NCBI GenBank assembly: GCA_021781455.1
Contig: JAJXWV010000075.1
Span: 1-64,000 of the forward strand
Source of the DNA: Acidobacteriota bacterium
Lineage (GTDB): Bacteria > Acidobacteriota > Thermoanaerobaculia > Gp7-AA8
Length of the DNA stretch: 64,000 bases
Direction of reading: 5' to 3'
Shown here: positions 7,800 through 57,848 of the stretch, in pieces
How the letters are laid out: every line of letters starts with the position of its first letter
How positions within the stretch are numbered: the first letter of the stretch is position 1
Notes under the pieces: model-generated
Told to the model about the DNA's origin: nothing
Database searches by the model: none
Seen by the model: only the letters and a program-made list of their open reading frames with translations
Position numbers and translations under genes: made by a program

Positions 7800-7865
7800 C
7801 AGCTGCACCTCGCAACCTCGTGCACCTCGCAACCTCGTGACCTCGCAACCTCGTGACCTCGTGAC
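7800..7865. repeat. CCTCGCAA/CCTCGTGA octad array
   Basis: A tandem run of 8-base units (CTCGCAAC, CTCGTGAC) on one strand only, just upstream of the next gene. The same unit forms both arms of the hairpin around 8771-8860 and of the one inserted in the E1 gene at 29005-29093. Confidence 0.8.
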
Positions 7866-7886
7866 CATTCCGTCGGACAATTCGAC

Positions 7887-8765
7887 ATGCTCCGCGCACT
7901 GGCAGTCATCTTCGCTCTCGCCGCGACCGGTGCGGCCGCACCGCCGACGTTCGAGGCCATCCTCATCGGGACCGGCTATCCACGACCCGACCCGAACCGC
8001 GCGGGAGCGTGCACCGTCGTCGTTGCCGGTGACGAATGGTTCGCCGTCGACGCCGGACGGGCGGCGACGCTGCGCCTTGCCGCGACGGACCTCAAATACG
8101 AGAAGCTGCGCGCCGTTTTCCTGACGCACCTCCACTCCGATCACACGGCCGGCCTTCCCGACCTCTTCAACACCTCGTGGCAGTTCGGCCGGAAGACGCC
8201 GCTCGAGCTCTACGGCCCGACCGGAACGGACAAGCTCGCGCACGCCATGCTCGAGTTCTTCGAGTACGACATCCACATCCGCCGCGACGTGATGGAGAAG
8301 CATCCTGCGGCGGGTGCGACGATCAGCGTTCATCCCGTTCGCGAGGGTGTCGTCTTCGAAGATGCGAACGTGCGCGTCACGGCCTTCGAAGTCGATCACG
8401 GGCCGGTCAAGCCGGCCTTCGGCTACCGATTCGAGTCGCATGGAAAGACGATCGTGATCTCCGGAGACACGCGGCCGGTCGCAAACCTGGTGAAGTTCGC
8501 CAGGGGAGCCGACGTCCTGATCATGGAGGCCTATCTTCCCGAGCATTTCCTCCGCGTCGACACGCCCGAGGTGGCGAAGAAGCTGATGGGCTATCACAGC
8601 AGCGCCGAAGAAGCGGGAGAAATCGCGGCGCAGGCGGGCGTGAAGACGCTCGCGCTGACGCATCTGATTCCCGGCGACGCCGCGGCGACGTTTCGCGAAC
8701 GGGCAGGAAAAGCGTTCAAGGGAACGCTGATCGTGGGGCGGGGCCTGGAAGTCGTGAAACCATGA
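7887..8765 (+). CDS. Secreted metallo-beta-lactamase-fold hydrolase
   Basis: A 292-residue protein with a signal peptide (about 1-18, ending TGAAA) and an MBL fold related to RNase Z/arylsulfatase-like enzymes. The metal-binding motif THLHSDHTAGLPDLF lies near residues 78-92, the second-shell GDTRP near 195 and LTHLIPG near 259. The export signal argues against an RNA substrate; a periplasmic ester or phosphodiester hydrolase is more likely. The substrate is unknown. No neighbouring gene gives functional context. Confidence 0.88.
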   Translation: MLRALAVIFALAATGAAAPPTFEAILIGTGYPRPDPNRAGACTVVVAGDEWFAVDAGRAATLRLAATDLKYEKLRAVFLTHLHSDHTAGLPDLFNTSWQFGRKTPLELYGPTGTDKLAHAMLEFFEYDIHIRRDVMEKHPAAGATISVHPVREGVVFEDANVRVTAFEVDHGPVKPAFGYRFESHGKTIVISGDTRPVANLVKFARGADVLIMEAYLPEHFLRVDTPEVAKKLMGYHSSAEEAGEIAAQAGVKTLALTHLIPGDAAATFRERAGKAFKGTLIVGRGLEVVKP

Positions 8766-8770
8766 CAGTG

Positions 8771-8860
8771 ATTGCGAGGTTCCGCGGTTCCGCGGTGTCT
8801 GGACGTTTGACCCGCCTCGTAACCTCGTGACCTCGTAACCTCGTAACCTCGTAACCCGTT
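8771..8860. repeat. Octad hairpin (CTCGTAAC)
   Basis: GCGAGGTTCCGCGGTTCCGCGG on the left faces five CTCGTAAC/CTCGTGAC units on the right. The junction GCGAGGTTCCGCGGT with a nearby CCGCCTCGTRACCTCG recurs, reverse-complemented, inside the E1 gene at 29005-29093. The two are therefore copies of one hairpin, not independent tandem arrays. Confidence 0.8.
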
Positions 8861-9462: not shown

Positions 9463-9597
9463 CGGTTGCGCGGTTGCGCGGTTGCAAGGTTGCGAGGTTG
9501 CGCGGTTGCGCGGTATCGCGGTGCCGCGAACGAAGAACACGATCTACCGCTCGAACACCGCGTAACCGCGCAACCGCGCAACCTCGCAACCGGTCGG
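9463..9597. repeat. GCGGTTGC octad hairpin
   Basis: Eight-base units (GCGGTTGC with variants) starting at the stop codon of the DUF421 gene face CGCGCAAC/CTCGCAAC units at 9563-9595. The loop is AACGAAGAACACGATCTACC. A one-armed array with the same unit lies at 21854-21893. Confidence 0.85.
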
Positions 9598-9894: not shown

Positions 9895-12270
9895 ATGGTG
9901 CAAACGGCGCTCCCGGTCGACCGCTTCGTCGATGAGATCGTGGACCACGTCCGCCGGAAGCGATTCGCGGTCGTCGTGGCGCCTCCCGGATCGGGAAAGA
10001 CCACGCGCATTCCTCCGGCGCTCACGGGGATCGGCCCGACGATGCTGCTGCAGCCGCGGCGGGTAGCCGCCCGCACGCTCACGCGCCGGATTGCGGCCGA
10101 GCACGGCTGGACGATCGGCCGCGAAATCGGCTGGCAGATCCGCTTCGAGCACCGCTACTCGGAACAGACGCGGCTGCTGGTGGCGACCGAGGGCATTCTG
10201 ACAGCGCGGCTGCAGGGAGATCCGCTGCTGAGCGACTTCGCGGTGGTGGTTCTCGACGAGTTCCACGAGCGCAGCATCCACGCCGATCTGGCGCTGGCGC
10301 TGGTCAAGGAAGCGGCGCGCTCGCGCGACGACCTGCGCATCGTGGTGATGTCGGCGACCATGGACGCGGAGGGCGTGGCCTCGTACTTGAGATCGCAGAT
10401 CGCAGATCGCAGATCGCAGGAGAACGACGACGTCCGGATCTTCGACATCGCGGCGGAGCGTCACCCGCTCGAGATCCTCTACCGGCCCGATGTCGGGGTC
10501 GCGCAGGCGGCGCGCGATGCCCTGGCGGTCGCGAAGGGCGATCTCCTCTGCTTCCTTCCCGGAGTGCGGGAGATCGAGCGTGCCCGCGGCGAGCTGGCGA
10601 ACTGCGGAGCGCTCGTGCTGCCGCTGCACGGGACGCTCGAAGTCGACGAACAGGAACGCGCGCTTCGTCCCGCGGATCGGCAGAAGGTCATCCTGGCCAC
10701 CAACGTCGCCGAGACCTCCCTGACCGTCGAAGGGGTGACCGACGTCGTCGACTCCGGCGTGCACAGGATCCTGCGCTACGACGCCGGGACGGCGGTCGAC
10801 CACCTCGTCACCGAGCGCATTTCCCTCGATTCCGCCGACCAGCGCGCCGGCCGCGCCGGCCGTACGGGACCGGGCCGGGCCACGCGGCTGTGGGACGAGC
10901 GCGACATCCTGCGCGCACACCGCGAGGCCGAGGTGCGGCGCGTCGACCTGGCCGCTCCGGTCCTCGACATCATCGCCTGGGGCGGCAATCCGCGGAGCTT
11001 CGACTGGTTCGAGCGGCCGCCGGACGATCGCCTCGAGGCGGCCCTGGATCTGCTGCACATGTTAGGCGCCATCACTGACGAGGGCGGCAGCTCGCAGGAG
11101 GCCGCTCGCCGTAGTGTTCGTGAGAGCCGCGAGCCACGAGCTGCGACCTCACGTCCGATGCTCACTGCACTCGGCGACCAGATCCGCCGCTTTCCGCTCC
11201 ATCCCCGCCTGGCCGGAATGATCATCGAAGCCCGCGGCGCCGACCTCGCCATTGCCATCGCTGCGGCGATCAGCGAGGGCGTGCGCCTGGGGAGCTCGGC
11301 CACCACGCGATCGGACGCATTCGCCATCGCCGACGCCGCCCCCCGGCCGATCGTGGCCGAGCTCACCCGCATCGCCAAAACCATCCTCGGCGACCGCCTC
11401 CGCCGCCGCGCCGGCGAGGAGACGATCCTCCGCGCAATTCTGGCCGCCTATCCCGATCGCGTGGCCCGTCGCCGCGAGCCGAAATCCGACCGCCTGCTGC
11501 TGGCCGGCGGCACGGGAGCCGTCCTGGCGCGGGAGAGCGGCGTGCGCGAGGGCGAGTTCCTCGTCGCCCTCGACGTCGGCGGCGCGGGCGGTGAGGCACT
11601 GGTGCGGATGGCCAGCGCCATCGAGCGCGACTGGCTCACGCCGACGCGGCGCGAAACGATCCACGAGATGGCCGGCGGCCGCGTCCGCGCAGTGGACAGG
11701 CAGTGGTACGGCGCGATCCTTCTCCACGAGCAGAGCGTGAACGCCGATCCTGCCGCGGCCCGCAGACTGCTGGCCCGCGCGATGCGCTCGCAGATCGATC
11801 CCGCGCTGCTGCGGCGCGTGGCCTTCGCCGGTCTCGAAGTCGACTGGGACGCCCTGCTCGAACAGGCGGCCGCGGCGCGCAAGCGCGCGGACGATCCCGA
11901 TCTCATCGCCTTCCTGCCATTCGAGGTCCGCAGGCAACTCGATCGCCTGGCACCTCCGAGCGTGCCGCTGCCGAGCGGCCGCAGCGCGCGGCTCGAGTAT
12001 CGCGAGGACGGCACCATCTTCGCCGCCGTGAAGCTTCAGGAGCTGTTCGGCCTCGCGGATACGCCGCGGGTGGGACCACAGCAGACGCCGGTCACATTCG
12101 AGCTCCTCGCGCCGAACGGCCGTCCCGTTCAGGTCACGCGCGATCTGCGCAGCTTTTGGGACAACACGTACGCCGAGGTGCGGAAGGAACTGCGCGTGCG
12201 GTATCCGAAGCATCCCTGGCCGGAGGATCCCTGGACGGCGACGCCGACGTATCGGACCCGGCGGAGGTGA
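9895..12270 (+). CDS. hrpB: ATP-dependent helicase HrpB with two repeat-encoded insertions
   Basis: About 791 residues, a DEAH-box family helicase. Motif I is APPGSGKTT, motif II is DEFHE, motif III is MSATMD, motif V is TNVAETSLTVEGVTDVVDSG and motif VI is QRAGRAGRTGPG; the C terminus matches the HrpB-specific region. Its RNA or DNA substrate in bacteria is poorly defined. Starts at 9856, 9886 and 9895 are in frame; 9895 gives an N terminus closest to the family. Two inserts are encoded by heptad repeats: [15 protein letters not shown] (10386-10421, GATCGCA units) and a Ser/Arg-rich stretch (about 11085-11160). Both keep the frame and sit between conserved motifs. Confidence 0.92.
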   Translation: MVQTALPVDRFVDEIVDHVRRKRFAVVVAPPGSGKTTRIPPALTGIGPTMLLQPRRVAARTLTRRIAAEHGWTIGREIGWQIRFEHRYSEQTRLLVATEGILTARLQGDPLLSDFAVVVLDEFHERSIHADLALALVKEAARSRDDLRIVVMSATMDAEGVASYLRSQIADRRSQENDDVRIFDIAAERHPLEILYRPDVGVAQAARDALAVAKGDLLCFLPGVREIERARGELANCGALVLPLHGTLEVDEQERALRPADRQKVILATNVAETSLTVEGVTDVVDSGVHRILRYDAGTAVDHLVTERISLDSADQRAGRAGRTGPGRATRLWDERDILRAHREAEVRRVDLAAPVLDIIAWGGNPRSFDWFERPPDDRLEAALDLLHMLGAITDEGGSSQEAARRSVRESREPRAATSRPMLTALGDQIRRFPLHPRLAGMIIEARGADLAIAIAAAISEGVRLGSSATTRSDAFAIADAAPRPIVAELTRIAKTILGDRLRRRAGEETILRAILAAYPDRVARRREPKSDRLLLAGGTGAVLARESGVREGEFLVALDVGGAGGEALVRMASAIERDWLTPTRRETIHEMAGGRVRAVDRQWYGAILLHEQSVNADPAAARRLLARAMRSQIDPALLRRVAFAGLEVDWDALLEQAAAARKRADDPDLIAFLPFEVRRQLDRLAPPSVPLPSGRSARLEYREDGTIFAAVKLQELFGLADTPRVGPQQTPVTFELLAPNGRPVQVTRDLRSFWDNTYAEVRKELRVRYPKHPWPEDPWTATPTYRTRRR
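10386..10421. repeat. GATCGCA heptad array inside hrpB
   Basis: Four to five tandem GATCGCA units with no complementary arm, in frame, encoding [10 protein letters not shown] between helicase motif III and the following strand. The same unit forms intergenic arms at 28014-28088 and 57664-57848. Confidence 0.85.
11085..11160. repeat. Degenerate heptad hairpin inside hrpB
   Basis: Right-arm units CGTGAGA, GCCGCGA, GCCACGA, GCTGCGA follow a weaker partner (CTCGCAGGAGGCCGCTCGCC). The encoded residues, SQEAARRSVRESREPRAATS, are unlike the surrounding helicase sequence. Confidence 0.55.
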
Positions 12271-25962: not shown

Positions 25963-26024
25963 CGTGTGGGGCGGGCTTTCCAGCCCGCCCAAGGGGGCAG
26001 GCTGGAAAGCCTGCCCTACACCGA
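25963..26024. repeat. GGCTTTCCAGCC double palindrome
   Basis: GGGCGGGCTTTCCAGCCCGCC followed by the inverse-oriented GGCAGGCTGGAAAGCCTGCC, ending CTACACC. It lies between convergent genes and could terminate both. Confidence 0.8.
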
Positions 26025-27592: not shown

Positions 27593-27826
27593 AGAAACTC
27601 CCAGTGTTTATGCGGCTCGCGTGTTCGTTGCCCTTCTCCCCGCCGCAGCGGGGAGAAGGTGCCGAAGGCAGATGAGGGGTCTCCTTTTGAACCAGAACGA
27701 GACCCCTCACCCCGGCCCTCTCCCCGCTGCGGCGGGGAGAGGGGGAACGATCGAACGTTTCTTCTCTCCGGTGTCGCGTCTCCGGTGTCGCGCCTGCGCG
27801 ATTCGAGTGCTCGGAATGACAGGATC
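27588..27826. repeat. ~230-bp element, inverted copy of 1117-1345
   Basis: The reverse complement matches 1117-1345 almost throughout, including AAGAAACGTTCGATCGTTCC, GAGGGCCGGGGTGAGGGGTC, the two CCCCGC palindromes and AACGAACAC...GCATAAACACT with AGTTTCTTGGA. This copy has a local duplication of GACACCGGAGA. It abuts the surviving tail of the YheT-like gene. Confidence 0.9.
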
Positions 27827-27841
27827 GCCCTTCGATTTTTG

Positions 27842-28048
27842 TCCGCGGCGTCCAGCGCCGTCGAGATCCGCACGACGAGGTTCGGCGGCCACACCGGCTT
27901 CGTGGCCGGACGGGTGCCGTGGCGCTGCACGTACTGGGCGGAAGAGATGATCGTGGATTGGCTCATCGGGCGCGGGATTCCGGGTTACGCCGCTGAGGAG
28001 TCGCGAATCAGAGCGCAGATGGCAGATCGCAGATCGCAGGTGGGCTGA
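27842..28048 (+). pseudogene. C-terminal remnant of a YheT-like alpha/beta hydrolase
   Basis: The plus-strand frame ending at TGA 28046-28048 reads TTRFGGHTGFVAG, then PWRCTYWAEEMIVDWL. This matches the end of the YheT/COG0429 alpha/beta-hydrolase family, where GGHxGF carries the catalytic His and a W-x-E-x-x-I-x-x-WL segment closes the protein. The nucleophile Ser and everything else upstream are missing, replaced by the ~230-bp repeat. The last residues (QMADRRSQVG) and the stop are from a heptad array. It is most simply a gene truncated by repeat-mediated rearrangement. Confidence 0.6.
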
Positions 28049-28088
28049 AAAGACCGACCCGCGATCTGCGATCTGCGATCTGCGCTCC
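28014..28088. repeat. GATCGCA heptad hairpin
   Basis: Left units GCAGATGGCAGATCGCAGATC, loop GGTGGGCTGAAAAGACCGACC, right units GCGATCTGCGATCTGCGATC. It ends about 20 bases before the E1 fusion start. Confidence 0.85.
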
Positions 28089-28111: not shown

Positions 28112-30784
28112 ATGTCCACGACCGAGAGTCCCGCGCGAACGAAGCCGGCGCTCCTGGCGCGATTCGCGTCGTTCGTCGCCGAGCGGCATCCCTTCGCGCT
28201 CCGTCCTGCGGTGACGGCGCTGGACATGGCCATCGGCGGTCGCGGCGCCGACGAGCGCGACCCCGTCTCCATCGACGGCCTGCGCGATCCGCTCCGCCGG
28301 CTGCTCATGCAGACGCTCTCCGACTTTCTCGCTCCCGACGCCTCCGCTGCGGAGAAGCTTTTCGACGTGCCGGAAACCACGCCGGGCGTGCCGGTCGGCA
28401 AGCGGCTGCAGCAGGCCGTCAGCGAGGTCATCGACTCCTGCGACGGCTTCCTTCGCCGCGAAGCGATCGCCGCGTCGCTCACGCCCGACGAAAAGCGCGA
28501 AATCCTCCGCGGCATGATCCTTACCCGCGCCACCGACAACCGCCTCAAGCAGTTCTTCACCGCCGGCGAAGTCCGCTACGGCAGTGCCTCCTTCCAGGGC
28601 AAGGGCTTTCGCTCGTTAGGTCAGGAAGCGATCTACGCCGCCGTCATACGCTTGCGCCGGGGCGCCGCATACGAGGTGTCGGGGGGCGGGTCTCAGGTGT
28701 CGGGCCCACCACCAGCGAATGAACAGGCGCCCCCCGACACCCGGCACCCGACACCCGACACCCGTACGTGGGATGGCGACGTCATCTCCCCGATGATCCG
28801 CGACCTCGGCGCGGTCATCGGCATGCACGATGCGCCCGAGACCATCCGCATGGTCCTCAACGCGCAGATGGCGAAAGCCGGCGAGCCGATGAATGGCAAG
28901 GACCTCCACGTCGGCGACTGGTCGCACGGCATCTTTCCGGCCATGGCTCCGTTAGGCGCGCCCGCACTGACCATCGCCGGGATGGCCATGGCCTTCAGGA
29001 TGGAGGGTCACGAGGTCACGAGGTCACGAGGTCACGAGGCGGACGGGACCGCGGAACCTCGCAACCACGCCACCTCGCAACCCGGCCTTCGCGTCGCGGT
29101 CTCCTTCGCCGGCGAAGGCGCCACCTCTCTCGGCGAGTGGAACGAGGCCGTCAATACCTGCGCGGCGCACAAGCTGCCGGCGATCTTCTGCGTTCAGAAC
29201 AACCAGACCGCGCTGTCGACGCCGGCCCGCGAGCAGTCGGCCGTCCGCGTCTTCGCGGAGAAGGGCGCCGCCTTCGGGATTCCCGCGATCACGATCGACG
29301 GGACCGATCCGGAAGCGATCGCCTCCGCGTTCGCCTGGGCTGTCGAGCGCGCCCGCGCCGGCCTCGGTCCGGCGTTGATCGAGCTCGTGGCCATGCGCAT
29401 GTGCGGTCATGCCCATCACGACGACATGCTCTACCTCGGCAAGGACCCCCAGCCGTCGTGGACGTATCCGCAGCTCGTCGAAGGCGGCTATGCCAATCAG
29501 GACCTGTACGACTACTGGTCGCATCGTGATCCGATCGCCGGCTACGCCGCGAAGCTCGCCGCCGACGGAGTCATCGCGCCGGGCGATCTGGAGAAGCTGA
29601 TCCGCGAGGCGGAGGAGATCGTGGAGCGCGAAGCGCGAGCGGTCATCGAGGCCGCGTGGCCGGATCCTTCTCTCGCCGGCACGGGAGTGCTCGCCGACGA
29701 GCCGCGGCGAGCTCACGTGGAGGTCCTCGACGAAGAGTGGCGGCAAGGGAGCTCGAAGAACGCCGGGCTGCCGCCGGTGGAAGAGGCGCCGCCGTTCGAT
29801 CCGAAGGGAAGGACGTTCCTCGACGCGATCATGCTCGGCGTCGGCGACGCGCTGCGAAGCGATCCGCGCGTCTTCGTCTACGGCGAAGACGTCGGCGGAA
29901 AGTACGGCAACGCCTTCCTGCTGCTGAAGCCGCTGCTGAAGGAGTTCGGCGATCGCATCATCAACTCGGTGCTCTCCGAGGCGGCAACGATCGGCGTTTG
30001 CGCTGGAGCGGCCCTGGAGGGATTTCGTCCCATCGGGGAGATCCAGTTCAACGACTTCATCGCCACGGGATTCAACCAGCTCGTCAACAACGCGGCGAAG
30101 ATCCGCTACCGCTGGGGCGGCTCGGTGCCGATGGTGCTGCGCATGCCCTGGGGCGGCCTGCGGCACGCCGGGCCGTATCACTCGCAGAATACCGAGGCCT
30201 GGTTCTATCGGACGCCGGGGCTGAAGATCGTCGTGCCGTCGACGCCGCACGATGCGCGGGCGCTGATGGCCGCAGCGGTCGCCGATCCCGATCCGGTGAT
30301 GTACTTCGAGCACATCAACCTCTATCGCGATCCGCGGATCCGGCAGCTTCTCGGCGATGAAGCCCCGCAGCCGCTTCCGATCGGCAAGGCTGCGCTGCGA
30401 CGGAGCGGCGGCGACCTGGCCATCGTCTCGTACGGCGCGTACGTGCACGTGGGCATGCGCGTGGCGGAGCGGCTCGCGGCGGAGGGCGTGCAGGCGGCGG
30501 TGCTCGACCTGCGCTCGCTGGCTCCGCTCGATCGACAGACTCTGCTCGCGGTCGCCCGGCACTGCAATCGCGTTCTGGTGATCGAAGAAGACACGCGCAC
30601 GGGATCGGTCGGCGAGTCGCTTGCGGCGATCATCCAGGAAGAAGCCTTCGAGTACCTCGACGCGCCGGTACGGATCCTCGGCTCGCTCGACACGCCGGTC
30701 CCCTACTCGCCGCCGCTGGAAGAGGAGTTCCTGGCCGGTGAAGAGCGGATCCTGAATGCGGCGCGGCTGCTGATGCGCTACTGA
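28112..30784 (+). CDS. 2-oxoacid dehydrogenase E1, alpha-beta fusion, with two repeat-encoded insertions
   Basis: 890 residues. About 135-580 is an E1-alpha-like thiamine-diphosphate domain; GEGATSLGEWNEAVN matches the GDGATSEG...N cofactor motif and FCVQNNQTALST follows. About 580-890 is E1-beta (GEDVGGKYGNAFLLLKPLL, ALEGFRPIGEIQFNDFI, RMPWGGLRHAGPYHSQ). Such fusions decarboxylate branched-chain or related 2-oxoacids for a lipoyl E2; no E2 or E3 gene is nearby. Two stretches foreign to the family, about residues 188-219 (GGGSQVSGPPPANEQAPPD...) and 298-327 (EVTRSRGHEADGTAEPRN...), are encoded by hairpin repeats that keep the frame. They sit in the alpha domain, the second just before the cofactor motif, so activity needs testing. 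Confidence 0.88.
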   Translation: MSTTESPARTKPALLARFASFVAERHPFALRPAVTALDMAIGGRGADERDPVSIDGLRDPLRRLLMQTLSDFLAPDASAAEKLFDVPETTPGVPVGKRLQQAVSEVIDSCDGFLRREAIAASLTPDEKREILRGMILTRATDNRLKQFFTAGEVRYGSASFQGKGFRSLGQEAIYAAVIRLRRGAAYEVSGGGSQVSGPPPANEQAPPDTRHPTPDTRTWDGDVISPMIRDLGAVIGMHDAPETIRMVLNAQMAKAGEPMNGKDLHVGDWSHGIFPAMAPLGAPALTIAGMAMAFRMEGHEVTRSRGHEADGTAEPRNHATSQPGLRVAVSFAGEGATSLGEWNEAVNTCAAHKLPAIFCVQNNQTALSTPAREQSAVRVFAEKGAAFGIPAITIDGTDPEAIASAFAWAVERARAGLGPALIELVAMRMCGHAHHDDMLYLGKDPQPSWTYPQLVEGGYANQDLYDYWSHRDPIAGYAAKLAADGVIAPGDLEKLIREAEEIVEREARAVIEAAWPDPSLAGTGVLADEPRRAHVEVLDEEWRQGSSKNAGLPPVEEAPPFDPKGRTFLDAIMLGVGDALRSDPRVFVYGEDVGGKYGNAFLLLKPLLKEFGDRIINSVLSEAATIGVCAGAALEGFRPIGEIQFNDFIATGFNQLVNNAAKIRYRWGGSVPMVLRMPWGGLRHAGPYHSQNTEAWFYRTPGLKIVVPSTPHDARALMAAAVADPDPVMYFEHINLYRDPRIRQLLGDEAPQPLPIGKAALRRSGGDLAIVSYGAYVHVGMRVAERLAAEGVQAAVLDLRSLAPLDRQTLLAVARHCNRVLVIEEDTRTGSVGESLAAIIQEEAFEYLDAPVRILGSLDTPVPYSPPLEEEFLAGEERILNAARLLMRY
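28673..28768. repeat. Heptad hairpin inserted in frame in the E1 gene (first)
   Basis: Left units GGTGTCG, GGGGGCG, GGTCTCA, GGTGTCG; right units CGACACC, CGGCACC, CGACACC, CGACACC. The loop CCCACCACCAGCGAATGAAC is the reverse complement (21 of 25 positions) of the loop in the S9 peptidase insertion, although the arms differ. Confidence 0.88.
29005..29093. repeat. Octad hairpin inserted in frame in the E1 gene (second)
   Basis: Left units GAGGTCAC repeated about four times; right units AACCTCGC, AACCACGC, CACCTCGC. The central part, CGAGGCGGACGGGACCGCGG, matches the junction of the intergenic hairpin at 8771-8860 in reverse complement. Confidence 0.85.
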
Positions 30785-32813: not shown

Positions 32814-32861
32814 GGCGGCGGATTATAGGAAGGACTGCGGGCGTCCCCCCTGTCCTCTTGC

Positions 32862-32969
32862 CCGTGTAGGACAGGCTTTCCAGCCTGTCCTCTTTTCCAT
32901 TGTTCGGACAAGACTCCAATGGGGACAGCCTGGAAAGCCTGTCCTACACCGGGCCGGTCGGGACGCGGT
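32862..32969. repeat. GGCTTTCCAGCC double palindrome
   Basis: GTGTAGGACAGGCTTTCCAGC and CTGTCC face GGACAGCCTGGAAAGCCTGTC and CTACACC about 35 bases later, forming one long hairpin between divergent genes. Same family as 16062-16115 and 25963-26024. Confidence 0.85.
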
Positions 32970-57663: not shown

Positions 57664-57848
57664 GCCAGATCGCAGATCGCAGATCGCAGATCGCAGATCG
57701 CAGGCAGACTCGTTGAAGGCCGAGTGCTGACGTTTCTGTGATTACAATCCAGCGCACTGCTCACTATCCCACGTGCCCGTAAATCCCCGCGCCGCCTCGG
57801 CCTGCGATCTGCGATCTGCGACCTGCGATCTGCCACCTGCGATCTGGA
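57664..57848. repeat. GATCGCA heptad hairpin with a long loop
   Basis: Five GATCGCA units (57666-57703), a loop of about 95 bases without recognisable motifs, then CTGCGATCTGCGATCTGCG, ACCTGCGATCTG units (57801-57847). It begins directly after the SpoIIE-gene stop and ends 18 bases before the EttA start. Confidence 0.85.

Follow-up and report, generated by a model that had tools for sequence, protein, structure and literature searches.

In-frame palindromic inserts with heptad and octad arms in a fused E1 dehydrogenase gene of an Acidobacteriota bacterium

Results

The E1 gene and its product

The window, which is the whole 64,000-nucleotide stretch of DNA analysed here, belongs to a genome of 4.88 Mb (G000). 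An open reading frame on the forward strand at 28112..30784 is open over 890 codons, and the encoded 890-residue protein matched the domains E1_dh, Transket_pyr and Transketolase_C. The product is a fused alpha-beta E1 component of a 2-oxoacid dehydrogenase. An AlphaFold2 model, limited in quality by a shallow alignment of 20 sequences, had a mean pLDDT of 76.5 and matched solved structures of beta chains with Z scores up to 38 and of alpha chains with Z scores up to 33.5. The thiamine-diphosphate motif region (GEGATSLGEW...QNNQ) is encoded on the same strand at 29111..29206. The same fusion is present in named relatives, which are metagenome-assembled genomes of Thermoanaerobaculia / Acidobacteriota. 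No second close copy was found in G000 among the matches listed, the others being partial and at most 36% identical.

Comparison with the same-genus genome G001 gave dN/dS values of 0.18, 0.08, 0.21 and 0.11 for four stretches outside the inserts described below, values that describe the whole branch between the two species and not the period after insertion alone. With dN/dS at 0.08-0.21, the gene looks functional; it is intact and under purifying selection in the codons that flank the inserts.

Two repeat-encoded inserts interrupt the alpha domain

The original prediction of two repeat-encoded hairpins that keep the frame and introduce no stop was borne out by the open 890-codon frame and by single-strand folding, in which both inserts folded better than all 200 shuffles (z -3.8 for insert 1, z -3.1 for insert 2). 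Insert 1 comprises codons 189-218 (V189-R218; 28676..28765, forward strand), as delimited by orthologue and nucleotide alignments and the dN/dS comparison. Its left arm consists of GGTGTCGGG-type heptads (28675..28704) and its right arm of CCCGACA heptads (28733..28762, the array extending to 28764); the arms are 83% complementary, are spaced 28 nt apart and were located by inverted-repeat and array searches. GGG runs are present in the insert. It is missing in every family orthologue aligned, and in the nucleotide alignment 106 nt at this site correspond to 25 nt in G001, a net difference of 81 nt or 27 codons.

Insert 2 comprises codons 298-326 (E298-G326; 29003..29089, forward strand) and was delimited by orthologue alignments. 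Arms made of heptads had been proposed for both inserts, which holds for insert 1; insert 2 is octad-armed. Its left arm (29006..29039) has 4.2 copies of GGTCACGA at period 8, including four perfect octads, and its right arm (about 29055..29083), recognised by a partner score of 9.5 and by the fold, is made of degraded ACCTCGCA octads.

At neither site do repeat-free homologues have loops of similar length, the observation that would have spoken against insertion. In protein alignments the segment from R182 to D223 at site 1 has 42 residues here and 4-16 in family orthologues, and the segment from A292 to V328 at site 2 has 37 residues here against exactly 12 in about 60 orthologues that lack insert 2. 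Inserts at the same codons in independently assembled genomes of other species make misassembly unlikely.

Both inserts coincide with low-confidence stretches of the model (residues 184-218 and 302-324), the inserts themselves having pLDDT below 50. As had been anticipated, insert 2 lies just ahead of the GEG thiamine-diphosphate motif, whose coding region is directly 3' of it, and connects a helix (285-305) with a strand (329-333) in the model. In the known fold of this family, that strand starts on the side of the sheet facing away from the cofactor, which would account for the tolerance of insert 2.

Different repeats occupy these loops in relatives

Site 2 is not peculiar to this genome: longer inserts are present there in six related genomes, and in five of the six they are repeat-encoded, mostly by other repeat families. 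The description of the inserts as foreign to the family is therefore right for their sequence and wrong for site 2, where related species also have repeat-encoded inserts. The site is occupied by a worn palindrome of GGTCGGG/GGGCGTC-like heptads in G001, by GGGNGTC heptads in three genomes of genus g5 and by GCCAACA heptads in G015; the longer loop of G006 shows no clear repeats. In an E1 tree computed with the insert columns left out, the g1 and g5 genomes formed one clade with support of 92/86, just below the program's mark for strong support, and G015 and G006 fell elsewhere. The simplest reading of these sequences is one insertion that predates the g1-g5 split, with at least one separate insertion. 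If there was a single ancestral insertion, the octads in the window would have replaced heptads in place, or the insert would have been lost and followed by a new insertion. At site 1, two distant Acidobacteriota loci (L112 and L117) have the inserts SAKASAERWDG and FAKATADKA, derived from other repeat families; these are independent inserts.

A class of palindromes with period-7 or period-8 arms is dispersed through the genome

Elements were surveyed in 787 kb of G000. The sample was not random, being made up of the window, further stretches and the neighbourhoods of Y1 transposase genes, and its gene calls beyond the window, made within this analysis, are imperfect. The survey recovered 102 elements with arrays of period 7 or 8, of which 65 have an inverted partner and 37 are a single array only. 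In a paired element a loop is flanked by two arrays, inverted relative to each other, whose unit is 7 or 8 nt long; the median arm is 31 nt and the median loop 22 nt. Both E1 inserts are of this class. Period 7 accounts for 48 of the 65 paired elements and period 8 for 17. Counted by array, period 7 occurred 79 times and period 8 occurred 23 times, against 0-3 for most periods that are neither multiples nor neighbours of these; the double units, periods 14 and 15, also occur, and the remaining periods are rare. The window alone contains 21 period-7/8 arrays, whereas 20 second-order Markov resamplings yielded none.

The elements are strongly biased to intergenic DNA, where 73 were placed against 9.7 expected at random. 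Genes contain no more than 12 of them, where 78 were expected, and this figure includes one gene-call error or more. Three intergenic palindromes of the window, none assigned to a strand, illustrate the class: one of CAGATCG heptads just upstream of the E1 gene (28011..28087; fold z -11.0), an octad palindrome (GGTTGCGC) at 9463..9592, found by inverted-repeat search and G001 alignment in an interval of 416 nt that measures 74 nt in G001, and another of CAGATCG heptads at 57666..57839, found by array and inverted-repeat searches. A gene at 7887-8765 is flanked on both sides by octad arrays and is absent from G001, in which the region 7848-8856 has a counterpart of 119 nt against about 1.3 kb here. 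A different dispersed palindrome, the inverted repeat GTGTAGGACAGGCTTTCCAGCCTGTCC, occurs at 32861-32952 and 26000-26021, 6.9 kb apart.

The commonest words are CTGAGTN, the octads GGTYNCGM, CAGATCG, CAGACCR, CCAAGAG and TAGCGGG. Word expansion is lineage-specific, with near-equal counts on the two strands. With overlapping hits counted, CTGAGTN was matched 1179 times in G000, 359 times in G001 and never in g5. For GGGNGTC the counts were 9 in G000 and 196-294 in the genomes of g5, and for the octads 644 in G000 and none in many genera. Words that bear a stop (CTGAGTN) were never found inside genes, a result that is partly circular, as a frame must be open to be called, and that is given no separate weight here. 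Several elements have an identical order of unit variants. Arms matched their own partner better than the arms of other elements with the same word in 43 of 59 cases (Wilcoxon p 4e-5), a modest effect (mean match 0.798 vs 0.761). No loops common to several elements were found, apart from a few repeat-like hits from nested arrays. The dinucleotide TA was somewhat more frequent at element boundaries than in random intergenic DNA and had no fixed position. A role in transcription termination was also considered and rejected, as convergent gene pairs have the fewest elements between them (0.48 per kb, vs 1.02 for co-directional pairs).

In-frame copies occur in other conserved genes

In-frame inserts were also found in DnaE2 (two, at residues about 178-211 and 1071-1104), in ImuB (one clear insert at about residues 120-155 and a second variable stretch) and in RecJ (one octad palindrome at residues about 343-368; L088:18618-20000). 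The window itself has an in-frame CAGATCG array without a clear partner at 10390..10419 (forward strand) in the HrpB helicase gene (9895-12270), identified by array search and orthologue comparison. At the DnaE2, ImuB, RecJ and HrpB sites the loop is free of an insert in several relatives and is filled differently in others: in G008 (L195) the RecJ loop has an octad palindrome that is nearly perfect and uses another word, and DnaE2 of G001 has a GGTCACGA octad palindrome. The E1 gene is one case of a general pattern of in-frame palindromes in loops that relatives fill differently.

The imuB-dnaE2 mutagenesis cassette (L076:7612-14123, G000 C13) contains at least four repeat arrays, at least three of them as in-frame inserts, and a Y1 transposase-like gene sits between imuB and dnaE2. 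HrpB of G001 (L242) has an in-frame insert of another class, PLPAGEGGRTPERSEGARPGEG, whose source is a GC-rich palindrome that contains no heptads. The window has an inverted repeat similar to it, CTCCCCGC, at 27625-27750.

Discussion

Origin of the inserts

The inserts are very probably the result of small non-autonomous palindromes that multiply in the genome and survive within genes only where the frame is kept, no stop is introduced and a surface loop is hit, the insert then being translated and tolerated. An element of this kind would consist of a unit of 7 or 8 nt repeated three to five times, a loop of about 10-70 nt not shared with other elements, and an inverted array. Palindromes would land chiefly between genes, with selection purging insertions that break a gene; a copy within a gene would have to add a multiple of three bases, be free of stop codons and lie in a surface loop, as is the case at both E1 sites. 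The insert DNA would be read as ordinary codons, so that E1 would gain two disordered peptides of about 27-30 residues, which are probably made and kept. As hairpin repeats of this kind are scattered genome-wide and different ones occupy the same loop in relatives, such loops look like places where small genomic parasites can land safely.

No mobilising enzyme was found for the elements, and no target-site duplication of the kind that marks a MITE was seen above chance; flanking repeats of at least 5 nt had a frequency of 1.5%, against 1.2% in shuffled pairs, and element boundaries are fuzzy. Movement of the elements as units is thus something that we infer. The palindromes may spread as units or via template switching between palindromes; arms would be copied or replaced by template switching and would lengthen or shorten by slippage at period 7-8. 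Further points against mobile palindromes are the unshared loops, which set the elements apart from ordinary mobile elements, and the degraded right arm of insert 2.

In a different origin, a short inverted repeat present by chance in a tolerant loop would have been enlarged in place by replication slippage at period 7 or 8, with no mobile unit involved. Loops unrelated among elements, the failure to see a target-site duplication at the fuzzy boundaries and the 37 of 102 elements that are single arrays would all fit birth in place, and the heptanucleotide is the commonest long repeat unit in many genomes, for which slippage has been proposed (Mrazek 2007, as described in PMC4679880). Slippage alone, however, does not produce inverted arms, and arm variants mirror one another beyond expectation. 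The same few words moreover occur at dozens to hundreds of places per genome while being nearly absent in related genera, and the order of unit variants is common to several elements, all of which makes birth in place unlikely. Mobilisation of REP/REPIN-type elements by a Y1 (RAYT) transposase is very unlikely. The genome has 14 Y1_Tnp matches and the elements are hairpins in intergenic space, but neither gene neighbourhood, tag motifs nor a cross-genome correlation supports this origin: an element lies within 2 kb of only 3 of the 14 Y1 genes, GTAG and CGTC were found at 8 and 4 of 65 boundaries against backgrounds of 5% and 21%, and Y1 gene number did not correlate with element density (rho 0.08, 20 genomes, density in relatives being taken from one small sample of up to 20 kb each).

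The remaining alternatives concern the fate of the inserts. E1 site 2 is filled in every one of the five genomes of g1 and g5, a single clade (92/86), and this might suggest that in-gene hairpins are selected, for example because they slow translation or supply a regulatory disordered loop. Sequence, unit and length vary freely among the g1 and g5 species, however, many family members have no insert, and the strong depletion within genes points to harm or neutrality, so that a selected role is improbable. Removal from the RNA or the protein in the manner of an intron or intein, which had been raised as a question, found no support and is hardly credible. The segments are predicted to form RNA hairpins; an Rfam scan nevertheless gave no family above the cut-off, only microRNA families far below it. 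At about 30 residues the inserts are far below intein size, they are modelled as disordered loops in an otherwise ordinary E1 fold, and they preserve the frame, which splicing would make unnecessary. The same class is present at many intergenic sites, and variable loop lengths at one site across species are typical of tolerance.

A bolder possibility can be put forward tentatively: that the class, mobile or self-copying, is defined by its 7/8-nt period and not by its sequence, and that one word may give way to another at a given site. The ancestor of the clade apparently had a GGGNGTC-type heptad palindrome at E1 site 2, kept in g5 and worn in G001, and a GGTCACGA octad palindrome would have taken its place at the same codons in the species of the window.

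Relation to known repeats

Rickettsia palindromic elements are small stem-loop palindromes found between genes and in frame in conserved protein genes (Ogata et al. 2000, cited in PMC2229807), and for a guanylate kinase that bears one, translation and activity have been reported, along with a changed affinity (PMC2229807). The parallel drawn in the original prediction stands, in another phylum: the inserts in E1 and other conserved genes are in-frame palindromes of a dispersed repeat and are absent from orthologues, the relatives here being Thermoanaerobaculia / Acidobacteriota. The Rickettsia families are described as 105-146 bp long with shared sequence; here the arms are built of tandem 7/8-mers in many different words, around loops that elements do not share. 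The class behaves as the Rickettsia elements do without belonging to them.

Heptad-armed inverted repeats had been thought new, but are not new as such according to reports on Xanthomonas (PMC4692102) and Geobacter metallireducens (PMC2700814). The GGGNATC repeats of Xanthomonas and Nostoc are tandem heptads with an intergenic excess, with about 70-75 close inverted pairs per Xanthomonas genome (70 and 75 reported), and the g5 word GGGNGTC is very similar to them (PMC4692102). As with other heptad repeats of the STRR, GGGNATC or LSSR type, the arrays here are tandem, prefer a 7-nt unit and are mostly intergenic, with a period-8 group in addition. The GGGNATC system is described as one G-rich word with a proposed quadruplex role, mostly in single arrays and under-represented in coding regions, and its available text reports no recurrent in-frame use of one protein loop (PMC4692102); CTGAGTN, the commonest word here, is not G-rich in this sense and has no run of three G, though insert 1 does have GGG runs. 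Geobacter metallireducens has four or five tandem heptads with paired opposite-strand sites, one family also lying within genes; these were proposed as regulator sites or RNA elements with one consensus per class, unlike the many words seen here (PMC2700814). The TAACTGA heptads of Beggiatoaceae are dispersed intergenically with few inside ORFs, and are almost all direct, with one inverted case, unlike the inverted arms described here (PMC4679880). Borg tandem repeats are likewise translated into new disordered protein regions, but their in-ORF units are direct and all multiples of three (PMC9879509), against inverted units of 7 or 8 nt here. REP/REPIN sequences with RAYT are also short dispersed palindromes (PMC3116915, PMC3733652); their GTAG/CGTC signature and link to RAYT genes were not seen here. 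No report of such elements in Acidobacteriota was found in the literature searched, coverage of which was incomplete.

Implications

The fixed period of 7-8 nt across many unrelated words raises a mechanistic question. For annotation, these elements are a warning that repeat-encoded peptides may be common to unrelated proteins of one genome. Dispersed palindromes that enter conserved enzymes, known mainly from Rickettsia, are now seen in Acidobacteriota, in genes of central metabolism and DNA repair to which they add disordered loops. Since related species have different repeats in a given loop, each set of orthologues amounts to a natural experiment in insertion tolerance.
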